A stretch of 32,412 nt of DNA from a bacterium. GTDB taxonomy: Bacteria > Pseudomonadota > Gammaproteobacteria > Burkholderiales > SG8-41. The stretch covers positions 1 through 32,412 of the forward strand of contig DAIDBG010000094.1 of NCBI GenBank assembly GCA_027310225.1, read 5' to 3'. Of this stretch, positions 3,849 through 26,951 are shown in pieces. Under the pieces are notes generated by a model, which was not told where the DNA came from, ran no database searches, and saw nothing but the letters and a program-made list of their open reading frames with translations. Each line of letters starts with the position of its first letter. The stretch's first letter is position 1. The position numbers and the translations under genes were made by a program.

Positions 3849-4079
3849 TCAGCCGGCACGCAGCATCTCCACCACCGCCCGGTGGCGCGGCGCGGGTTCC
3901 CGCCGCCCGAGCGCCAGGTCCAGCAGATCGTTGTCGGGCTGATCGAGCAGCTCGCTGAAGACCTCCCTCTGCCCGGCGTCGAGCCGCTCGAAGTGGCGCT
4001 CGAGGAACGCCTTGAGGATCAGGTCGAGCTCGAGCAGTCCCCGGCGGCAGCGCCAGCGTACGCGGTCGAGGTCCGCCAT
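3849..4079 (-). CDS. sdhE: FAD assembly factor SdhE (succinate dehydrogenase flavinylation)
   Basis: 76 aa, MADLDRVRWRCRRGLLELDLILKAFLERHF..., contains the RRGLLELDL (RRGxxE-type) signature; located between sdhB and gltA. Confidence 0.9.
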   Translation of the reverse strand: MADLDRVRWRCRRGLLELDLILKAFLERHFERLDAGQREVFSELLDQPDNDLLDLALGRREPAPRHRAVVEMLRAG

Positions 4080-4091
4080 GCGGCCGACCTA

Positions 4092-4123
4092 GGAATTTGC
4101 CGGGCTCACGCCCGCCAAATTCC
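4092..4123. repeat. 32-nt palindrome between sdhB and sdhE
   Basis: GGAATTTGCCGGGC-TCAC-GCCCGCCAAATTCC; 8-bp plus 5-bp stem with one C/C mismatch; shares its core with the 25782-25812 palindrome. Confidence 0.75.
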
Positions 4124-4211
4124 GAACATGCAACAACATCCGGACACTGGAACTCAACGCTATCCTCTGCCACGCCCGCGCCATCTTCTGCATTTCGAAA
4201 CGATCCATTGA

Positions 4212-4243
4212 GGAACTCGTGCGACTGAAGCTCCACGAATTCC
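4212..4243. repeat. 32-nt palindrome overlapping the sdhB stop codon
   Basis: GGAACTCGTG-(12-nt loop)-CACGAATTCC; 10-bp stem with one mismatch in DNA that is a G-U pair in the sdh transcript. Confidence 0.65.
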
Positions 4244-4938
4244 TAAACGGTGCGCTTGACCAGGAGCTCCTTGATCTTGCCGATCGCCCGGGTCGGGTTG
4301 AGCCCCTTCGGGCACACTTCCACGCAATTCATGATCGTGTGGCAGCGGAAGAGGCGATATGGATCTTCCAAGTTGTCCAGCCGCTCGTTGGTCGCCTGGT
4401 CGCGCGTGTCCGTGATGAAGCGGTAGGCCTGCAGCAGGCCGGCCGGGCCGACGAACTTGTCCGGGTTCCACCAGAACGAGGGACAGGCGGTCGAGCAGGC
4501 CGCGCACAGGATGCACTCGTAGAGCCCGTTCAACTCCTCGCGGTCCTCGGGCGACTGCAGTCGCTCCTTCTCGGGCGGCGGATCATTGTTGATGAGATAA
4601 GGCTTGATCGAGTGGTACTGCTTGAAGAACTGGGACATGTCCACGATCAGGTCGCGGATCACGGGCAGGCCCGGCAGCGGCCGGATCTCCACCGGTTCCT
4701 TCAGGCCCGCGACGCTCGTGATGCAGGCCAGTCCGTTCCTGCCGTTGATGTTCATCGCGTCCGACCCGCACACCCCCTCCCGGCACGAGCGCCGGAACGA
4801 GAGAGTGTCGTCCAGCGTCTTGATGCGCACCAGCGCGTCGAGCAGCATGCGGTCGGTGGGCTCGAGCGCCACGTCGTAGTCCTGCATGCGCGGCTTGTCG
4901 TCCGTCTCCGGGTTATAGCGGTAGATCAAGAATCGCAT
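4243..4938 (-). CDS. sdhB: succinate dehydrogenase iron-sulfur subunit
   Basis: Start reassigned to internal ATG at 4938 (MRFLIYRYNPETDDKPRMQDYDVALEP...). Motifs: SCREGVCGSDAMNINGRNGLAC, CILCAACSTACPSFWWN, CHTIMNCVEVCPKGLNP. Confidence 0.95.
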   Translation of the reverse strand: MRFLIYRYNPETDDKPRMQDYDVALEPTDRMLLDALVRIKTLDDTLSFRRSCREGVCGSDAMNINGRNGLACITSVAGLKEPVEIRPLPGLPVIRDLIVDMSQFFKQYHSIKPYLINNDPPPEKERLQSPEDREELNGLYECILCAACSTACPSFWWNPDKFVGPAGLLQAYRFITDTRDQATNERLDNLEDPYRLFRCHTIMNCVEVCPKGLNPTRAIGKIKELLVKRTV

Positions 4939-4956
4939 TACCTGCTCCGCAAGTTC

Positions 4957-5023
4957 GTCACACGTTTCTCGTTGCTTGCCAGCGACCACAACATCAACAC
5001 CAGGAACGAGTAACGAGTCACTC
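4957..5023. repeat. heptamer-based imperfect inverted repeat between sdhA and sdhB
   Basis: GTCACACGTTTCTCGTTGC (4957-4975) pairs 15/19 with GGAACGAGTAACGAGTCAC (5003-5021); right arm is GGAACGA|GTAACGA|GTCACTC. Confidence 0.65.
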
Positions 5024-24801: not shown

Positions 24802-25782
24802 GTGAACGACATCCTGCTCAGGGCCGACAACCTGACGAAGTACTTTGCAGTGCGCCGCGGTTTTCCGGCCCGGCGGCTGCGGCAAGTGCATGCGGTCGAT
24901 GGCGTGAGCTTCGGATTGCGCCGGCAGGAAGTCCTGGGCGTGGTCGGCGAAAGCGGCTGCGGCAAGTCGACGATCGGCAGAATGGTCGTGCGTCTGATCG
25001 AGCCGACTTCAGGCAAGGTGGTTTTCGATGGCGTGGACATTACTGCGCTCGCGAAGCGTGATCTGCGTAATTGGCGGCGCAGGCTGCAGATCATATTCCA
25101 GGACCCTTATTCTTCGCTCAACCCGCGCCTGACTATCGGCAGCATCGTCGCAGAACCATTGGTCATCCACAAGCTTTGCACGAAAACTGAGATCCGGAAC
25201 CGCGTCGCGGACCTGCTGAAGAAAGTCGGGATGTCTCCTGACCACATGCGCAGGTACCCGCACGAGCTCTCGGGCGGCCAGCGTCAGCGCATAGGCATCG
25301 CCAGGGCACTGATCGTGAATCCGGAGCTGATCGTCGCCGATGAGCCGGTGAGTGCGCTCGACGTGTCGGTCCAGGCGCAAGTGCTGAACCTGCTCGGTGA
25401 CCTCAAGGAAGAATTCCGCTTATCGCTCATCATGATTTCGCACAACATGTCGGTGATCCAGCACGCCAGCGACCGTGTGGCCGTCATGTACCTCGGGCAG
25501 ATCGTGGAACTCGCAGCCGCGGATGAGGTGGTCATGGCGCCATGCCATCCTTACACGGTGGCGCTGGTGTCAGCGGTTCCGGTTCCTGATCCCCGCGCGA
25601 AGAAAGAGCGGATACTACTCAAGGGCGACGTTCCAAGCCCGATCGATCCGCCCGCGGGCTGCCGTTTTCATACGCGCTGTCCGCATGCGAAACCGCGATG
25701 TGCAACCGAGCAGCCGGAATTAAGAGAGGTACGCTCGGCGCATTTTGCTGCCTGCCATTTCAGCGAGGAGCTATACGCGTAG
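24802..25782 (+). CDS. ABC transporter ATP-binding protein (DppF/OppF-like)
   Basis: GTG start; Walker [10 protein letters not shown], signature [15 protein letters not shown], Walker [15 protein letters not shown]-terminal oligopeptide-type [14 protein letters not shown]. Confidence 0.94.
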
Positions 25783-25813
25783 GATTTTGCCGGACTTGGT
25801 CCGGCAAAATCCT
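25781..25813. repeat. perfect 15-bp-arm palindrome at the end of the dppF-like gene, in a convergent intergenic region
   Basis: AGGATTTTGCCGGAC-TTG-GTCCGGCAAAATCCT; arms are exact reverse complements; starts within the stop codon; no T-tract follows. Confidence 0.85.
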
Positions 25814-25837
25814 TATAGCACGTAACAAAATGAGTTT

Positions 25838-25873
25838 CCCCGCTCCCCTGCTCACGGAGGGCAGGGGAAGGGG
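25838..25873. terminator. second stem-loop in the convergent intergenic region (possible bidirectional transcript end)
   Basis: CCCC-GCT-CCCCTGC-(9 nt)-GCAGGGG-AA-GGGG; no U-tract, so not a classic intrinsic terminator. Confidence 0.4.
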
Positions 25874-25895
25874 CACAGAAACGTTACGGGCGCGC

Positions 25896-26951
25896 TTAAG
25901 AGCCGGTGTGAGGGCTCAAGTTCGACGGGCTGGACAGGCTGCTCGGCGGCGAGCCGTAAAGCCAGCATCGCACGCAATGGCCGGATGTGGTTTGCAGTAA
26001 CGCCGGCTCTTCGCTGGAACAGACAGGAAGCGCCTTCGGACAGCGCGGTTGAAACGCGCAACCCCGCGGCAGATTGGCGGGACTGGGCACGACGCCGGGA
26101 ATTGCGTGGAGTTTTCTTTCTTTCGGTTCGGAACGCTTCATTCTGAGTCGCGGAATGGAGTCAAGCAGCCCTGACGTATATGGGTGCAGCGGCTGCTCGA
26201 AGATTCGCTCGACGCTCGATTCTTCGACGATCCTGCCCGCGTACATGACGGCGACGCGGTCGCAGGTTTCGGCGACGAGTCCCATGTCATGGGAAATGAA
26301 TGCGATAGCGGTCGAGTATTCCTTTTGCAGCGCGGCCATGAGATCGATGATCTGCGCCTGGATGGTGACATCGAGCGCGGTGGTTGGCTCGTCCGCGAGC
26401 AGAACTTCCGGATTGCAGGCGAGCGCCATCGCGATCATCACACGCTGTCGCATTCCGCCAGATAACTGGTGCGGATATTCCTTGATGCGCTGGGCAGGCA
26501 GAGAAATGCCAACCTTGTCGAGCATGTTAGTTGCGTAGTCGAGCGCTTCATGCTTTCCCATTTTGAGGTGCAGCTCGACTGTCTCGGCGATTTGCCGGCC
26601 GATCGTGAACACCGGGTTCAAGCTCGTCATCGGCTCCTGAAAAATCATGGCGATTTTGTTGCCGCGGATTTTGCGCAGCTCGCCGGCAGGCAGCGCGATC
26701 AGGTTTTCGCCGTGAAATAAAATTCCCGCGCCCGACACGCTGCCGGGCGGACGCGGAATCAGGCCGAGTATGGCGAGAGCGGTCACCGATTTGCCTGAAC
26801 CGGATTCGCCGACGATGCCCAGCGTTTCGCCGCGCTTAAGCTCGAAGCTCACACCGTTGACGGCGCGGACCGTTCCTCCTGAGGGCGTATCGAATCGTAC
26901 GTCGAGCTCCCGGACGGCGAGCACACTCGATTCGGCCGGCTGCCGATCCAT
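25896..26951 (-). CDS. ABC transporter ATP-binding protein (DppD/OppD-like)
   Basis: Walker A GESGSGKS, LSGGMRQRVMIAMALACNPEVLLADEPTTALDVTIQAQI, C-terminal RGCAFQPRCPKALPVC. Confidence 0.94.
   Translation of the reverse strand: MDRQPAESSVLAVRELDVRFDTPSGGTVRAVNGVSFELKRGETLGIVGESGSGKSVTALAILGLIPRPPGSVSGAGILFHGENLIALPAGELRKIRGNKIAMIFQEPMTSLNPVFTIGRQIAETVELHLKMGKHEALDYATNMLDKVGISLPAQRIKEYPHQLSGGMRQRVMIAMALACNPEVLLADEPTTALDVTIQAQIIDLMAALQKEYSTAIAFISHDMGLVAETCDRVAVMYAGRIVEESSVERIFEQPLHPYTSGLLDSIPRLRMKRSEPKERKLHAIPGVVPSPANLPRGCAFQPRCPKALPVCSSEEPALLQTTSGHCVRCWLYGSPPSSLSSPSNLSPHTGS

Follow-up and report, generated by a model that had tools for sequence, protein, structure and literature searches.

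Two palindromes of 31-32 nucleotides in a 32,412-nucleotide stretch of betaproteobacterial DNA (hereafter the window) raise the question of what these sequences are and how they came to lie at the ends of genes. We consider it quite likely that they are the terminal hairpins of CTAG-targeting MITEs, related to IS1182 transposons, that accumulate at stop codons. As far as our literature search shows the family is new, although ordinary and known in kind.

A dispersed palindrome family in one bacterial family

Reading the sequence places the palindromes at 4092-4123 and 25782-25812, as first annotated, with arms that agree at 12 of 14 positions on the left and 11 of 14 on the right. Two of the differences, at stem pairs 4 and 13, are compensated, with Watson-Crick pairing retained; the 4092 stem carries a single C-C mismatch at pair 9. 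Their contexts had been called unrelated, but both palindromes lie at a gene 3' end, at a TAG stop codon. In the case of the second, the stop (25780-25782) belongs to an oligopeptide ABC transporter ATPase gene and its G is the first G of the palindrome, whose feet read GTAG and CTTA; a convergent gene occupies 25896-26951. The initial annotation had further proposed a dispersed element in place of two chance terminators, which is borne out by the covariance-model matches and by pattern matches far above the reversed control.

The genome of origin (G000) is an assembly of 3.34 Mb, 88% complete and split into 386 contigs, which we examined by searching it and by fetching parts of it. A single-arm pattern with at most one mismatch gave 43 matches, against 2 for the reversed pattern. 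The covariance-model scan that had been proposed as a check, run with a model built from 15 copies of the palindrome, located ~69 distinct places, nearly all with E<0.1, for a total of ~65-69 copies; the 25782 copy is a member of this same family. Stem covariation in the 15 model copies, which had been picked for their palindrome, was well above that of shuffled and slid versions. Exact matches to the two-arm pattern number 22 in G000, 107 in G009, 102 in G019, 108 in G066, 132 in G068, 42 in G015 and 23 in G012, and the reversed control gave zero in every genome searched. By contrast, the exact pattern was found in none of 57 of the 74 genomes of the bacterial family, and among 300 genomes sampled from the order it appeared in two only, both from this bacterial family; where records matching a strict version of the pattern carry a name, they are MAGs of groundwater Betaproteobacteria. 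The palindrome family is restricted to one family of uncultured Betaproteobacteria and, with zero exact copies in most relatives and over 100 in several, is lineage-specific and patchy, like mobile elements. A search of Rfam with the palindrome gave no match, and the literature yielded neither relevant published strings of its sequence nor a description of this CTAG-targeting, hairpin-ended family.

Anatomy was read from 1.06 Mb fetched round copies in five relatives, together with the window, a sample that held 140 palindrome copies against 1 in the reversed control. Position 4 of the stem is T-A, A-T or G-C and almost always complementary, and length is constant at 32 bp in 164 of 198 classified copies. 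Such constancy would suit a DNA-level binding site for a dimeric protein, whether a regulator or a nucleoid protein; however, a double-stranded site does not require the near-constant complementarity at position 4, and the copies do not favour promoters, which leaves a binding-site role extremely improbable.

Hairpin-ended elements bounded by CTAG

Many of the sampled palindromes form one end of a composite. Composite copies that run from one hairpin (A) to another (B) number 27 in four genomes, with the layout hairpin A, TNA, TGCAAAACCGCC, ~100 bp, GGCGGTTTTGC and hairpin B (CAGCCTGTCGGAC...GTCCGACAGGCTG), the outer bounds being CTAG. Delimited copies measure 150-212 bp, with CTAG on both sides and the hairpins as ends. 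In G009, a 212-bp version is present in ~40 copies of 87-100% identity, with end-to-end matches in nearly all; of the 30 copies examined, 20 carry a CTAG at each end, while in the rest one end is mutated or truncated. The 212-bp element is therefore a MITE by the usual description (short, free of a transposase gene, with fixed ends and many near-identical copies), and its near-identical copies with CTAG ends are the signature of one that has moved recently. Two CTAG feet would be expected from duplication of a 4-bp target; the target is apparently always CTAG, and the copies alone cannot separate such a duplication from conserved ends; the occupied and empty alleles at sdhB agree with duplication. 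Each end is itself a full palindrome, consisting of an inverted repeat and its own inverted copy, unlike the ends of autonomous IS1182 elements.

The 4092 palindrome forms one end of an element of 150 bp that sits at the stop codon of sdhB (Table 1). On the minus strand, sdhB ends in KRTV and a TAG that sits inside the CTAA foot and shares its G with the decayed hairpin (4243-4212); 88 bp, hairpin A (4123-4092), CTAG and the sdhE start follow in that order. An element lies between the sdhB TAG stop and CTAG in this genome, in G009, where the arrangement is the same, and in G007, where a CTAG-bounded element runs from hairpin B to hairpin A. The G007 element is alike in hairpin A and unlike in its other half, and may stem from the insertion that gave the other two or from a separate one. 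In G008 and G002 the site is empty, with 10-15 bp from sdhB to sdhE. Occupied and empty relatives end SdhB with KRTV at the identical residue, in an alignment whose stop was extended automatically from the aligned tail. Empty, occupied and decayed states of the sdhB-sdhE junction form a natural series in which a MITE can be followed over time at a single locus.

Table 1. Coordinates of the two elements and their neighbouring genes in the window
Feature	Position	Strand	Evidence
sdhE (Sdh5 flavinator), downstream gene	3849..4079	-	Pfam Sdh5 1.6e-22; ATG 10 nt past the CTAG foot
CTAG, outer foot of hairpin A, target copy on the sdhE side	4089..4092		sequence; CTAG likewise in G009 and G007
Hairpin A, palindrome at one end of the element	4092..4123		13/14 pairs, loop TCAC; fold -19.3 kcal/mol; model E 1e-9
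Whole MITE, 150 bp between CTAG/CTAA feet	4093..4242		occupied and empty alleles in relatives
Decayed partner hairpin, GGAACTCGTG...CACGAATTCC	4212..4243		fold -9.9 kcal/mol; aligns with G009 hairpin GAATTCGTCGG...CGACGAATTTC
CTAA foot (TTAG on minus strand), other target copy, mutated from CTAG	4243..4246		CTAG here in G007 and G009
sdhB, succinate dehydrogenase iron-sulfur subunit; insertion target is its TAG stop	4243..4989	-	Pfam Fer2_3 7e-33
Oligopeptide ABC transporter ATPase gene	24802..25782	+	Pfam ABC_tran and oligo_HPY
Second palindrome	25782..25812		14 perfect pairs, loop TTG; model E 2e-10
Probable rest of second element, TTATAGCACGTAACAAAATGA ... GTTACGGGCGCGCTTAAG	25813..25898		extent inferred; stops at the convergent gene's stop codon

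The 25782 palindrome is probably the end of another composite type, the extent of which is judged from sequence. Motif TAACAAAATGA adjoins the hairpin foot at four copies in this genome, that at 25782 included, and its background is low.

Solo 32-bp hairpins are also common, and their perfect stems are kept across species divergence. A CTAG foot is present in 20 of 78, with no duplicated flank beyond it, and the feet, chiefly in the GGAWTTTG class, are often YNA instead of CTA. Duplication of a YNA trinucleotide target found no support at solo hairpins, the middle base being no more alike than expected, nor did extension of the stem past the A/T foot, where covariation was not seen. Every solo hairpin would, we infer, have come by the same route as the composite MITEs. 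It is doubtful, though conceivable, that the palindrome is itself a minimal mobile unit or is renewed by hairpin-templated repair; were this so, few self-contained mobile units of bacteria would be smaller.

Stop codons and the scarcity of CTAG

With 3' ends called by a simple gene caller, a TAG that includes the first G of the hairpin occurs at 39 of 131 flanking 3' ends, with 3 more abutting, as against 28 of 3577 random intergenic positions. A C precedes the TAG in 29 of these 39 stops and in 54 of 186 other TAG stops. CTAG itself is strongly depleted in these genomes (351 observed, elements counted, against 833 expected). Outside elements, the 1.06 Mb holds 240 CTAG sites, of which 52 are at stops, 111 otherwise intergenic and 77 in genes, so that stop codons make up 32% of the tolerated sites, and the elements show the same share. 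The scarcity of CTAG explains why a third of the elements adjoin a stop codon: of the few sites where it is tolerated, a third are stops. A preference for stop codons as such was dropped, since the distribution of CTAG sites accounts for the bias. Mechanistically, a TAG stop preceded by C would be one of the few places where insertion at CTAG spares the gene; the gene would keep its TAG at the edge of the element, and elements would in this way gather exactly at stop codons. Comparison of fis, argD, phoR and two other genes with their relatives places the element at the native stop or at most two codons from it. At one locus (L110, contig C49 of G000), an insertion cut an acyl-CoA-dehydrogenase-like gene by two codons, the new TAG stop coming from the element.

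Location at gene ends would also be expected of functional RNA hairpins, that is, 3'-end stabilisers or terminators selected at stops, spread by copying and kept for a role in mRNA. Orthologous hairpins do contain pairs changed on both sides (three between this genome and G009 at C309, two between this genome and G001 at C268), together with mismatch-involving pairs in each comparison. Against such a role, the CTAG target fully explains the position at stop codons, and the palindrome family is absent from most relatives. In tandem contexts G-U pairs and A-C mismatches are equally frequent on the transcribed strand (17 each), which indicates no strand preference, and the proportions of tandem, convergent and divergent contexts match the background. 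Nor do the hairpins resemble intrinsic terminators: no T-run lies 3' of them, only TNA and then variable sequence. Selection for an mRNA function is accordingly improbable, and the conservation of stems may stem from renewal of the palindrome at the DNA level or from recent spread. The structural constraint first proposed for the pair thus survives in that compensatory changes keep the stems, whereas mismatch symmetry gives no sign of selection on RNA. The MITE reading instead provides a clean case in which target choice and the scarcity of CTAG pile mobile elements onto stop codons, an arrangement that could readily pass for a functional one. Without it, those who annotate these groundwater Betaproteobacteria would label the repeats REPs, terminators or RNA motifs.

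IS1182 transposons as candidate mobilisers

The palindromes had been described as REP-like, and REP elements moved by a RAYT (Y1) transposase, through single-strand transposition of tetranucleotide-tagged hairpins, would fit them in size, palindromy, intergenic position and copy number. GTAG REPs and REPINs with their RAYT are intergenic palindromes of 20-40 bp, sometimes paired, that often supply TAG stops (PMC3733652, PMC2817692); in particular, GTAG REPs, too, often give flanking ORFs their TAG stops, and GTAG or CGTC defines the REP superfamilies (PMC3733652). The present family differs in its 14-bp, perfectly symmetric stem and in its foot, which is YNAG/CTAG with a conserved YNA before GGA, and carries neither a GTAG nor a CGTC tag; GTA feet are few, on 4 of 240 sides for the G class and on 5 of 156 for the W class. 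RAYT-domain genes, a predicted companion of the repeats, do exist in most genomes of the bacterial family, but the palindrome borders none of the 30 Y1 loci examined, whether sought with the palindrome model or by a direct motif and hairpin scan. Their presence is moreover independent of copy number: they occur in copy-poor genomes too, and none was found in copy-rich G012 (23 exact copies). The duplex-style form of the element, with a CTAG at each end, agrees instead with IS1182 insertions. What stands of the REP-like description is a dispersed element that keeps its stem; mobilisation by a REP/RAYT system is highly improbable.

IS1182-family transposons do occur in the genome of origin (NF033551, 2.7e-112), as elements of ~1550 bp that are flanked on either side by CTAG and have GAGTCTGCGCGGCAGA as inverted repeats. 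The IS1182 elements of G086, G077 and G067 have CTAG duplications and CAGCCTGTCGG ends, and make up a nearer subfamily in which CTAG is followed by CAGCCTGTCGGACTT-type ends, whose sequence is that of the arm of hairpin B. That arm (CAGCCTGTCGGAC) is identical to the IS1182 inverted repeat in G086, G067 and, at one end, G077. The ends that a MITE should have in common with its autonomous relative are thus found through the arm of hairpin B, whereas the arm of hairpin A only resembles IS ends. The exact 17-base end is present on fragments of the nearer relative in G000 and G043, where a two-mismatch control gives 1 match per Mb. The similarity has a limit, in that the IS1182-family elements (1.55-1.58 kb, with a transposase gene) have single inverted-repeat ends that match one arm only and are not 32-bp palindromes.

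The intact IS1182 elements with B-type ends lie in genomes with 0-1 exact copies of hairpin A, and the searches turned up no autonomous element that ends in hairpin A. No DUF772 transposase was detected in copy-rich G007, G011, G012, G015, G019 and G021, which are draft MAGs in which loss or a gap is possible. Close hairpins in this genome and in the 1.06 Mb of relatives enclose ordinary genes only, and no transposase, in the cases read. An IS1182-family transposase most likely moved the MITEs in trans: a DDE enzyme whose own element ends in CTAG plus CAGCCTGTCGGACTT or GAGTCTGCGCGGCAGA, like the outer arms of the hairpins, would act on them from elsewhere.

The nearest described precedent that we found is MITEPsy1 of Pseudomonas syringae, a gene-less, IS5-type element of 100 bp with inverted repeats, which inserts at CTAG (or YTAA), duplicates this target and is thought to be moved by a related IS; strain 1448A has six copies (PMC3189936). 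The present MITEs have in common with it short length, the lack of genes, inverted repeats and insertion at CTAG. They differ in terminal sequence, in possessing terminal palindromes and in copy number, tens to hundreds against six.

Several minor observations were made along the way. In contig C159 of G000, an IS1182 element is nested within the CTAG at which a hairpin A has its foot (L298:1264-2821). G009 (L324, contig C123) and G000 (L325, contig C157) share a near-identical hairpin, TTAGCAGCTTGTCGGG...CCCGACAAGCTGCTAG, in each case next to a fragment of an IS1182 transposase. Two distant genomes (L067 in G014, L083 in G015) have similar sequence, beginning ATGCAAGTGAC, just after hairpin A. 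Next to hairpin A, the window at 25813-25898 and two other contigs of G000 (L092 in C254, L026 in C233) have a different interior type, TTAnAGCGCCTAACAAAATGA, whose mirror end is GTTAGGC; its GCCTAAC/GTTAGGC is similar to the core sites of integron attC, perhaps by chance. Within the same part of the window, a GC-rich inverted repeat, CCCCGCTCCCCTGC...GGCAGGGGAAGGGGC, spans 25836-25872, and these genomes have CCCCTCC-rich repeats like it in many of their intergenic regions.
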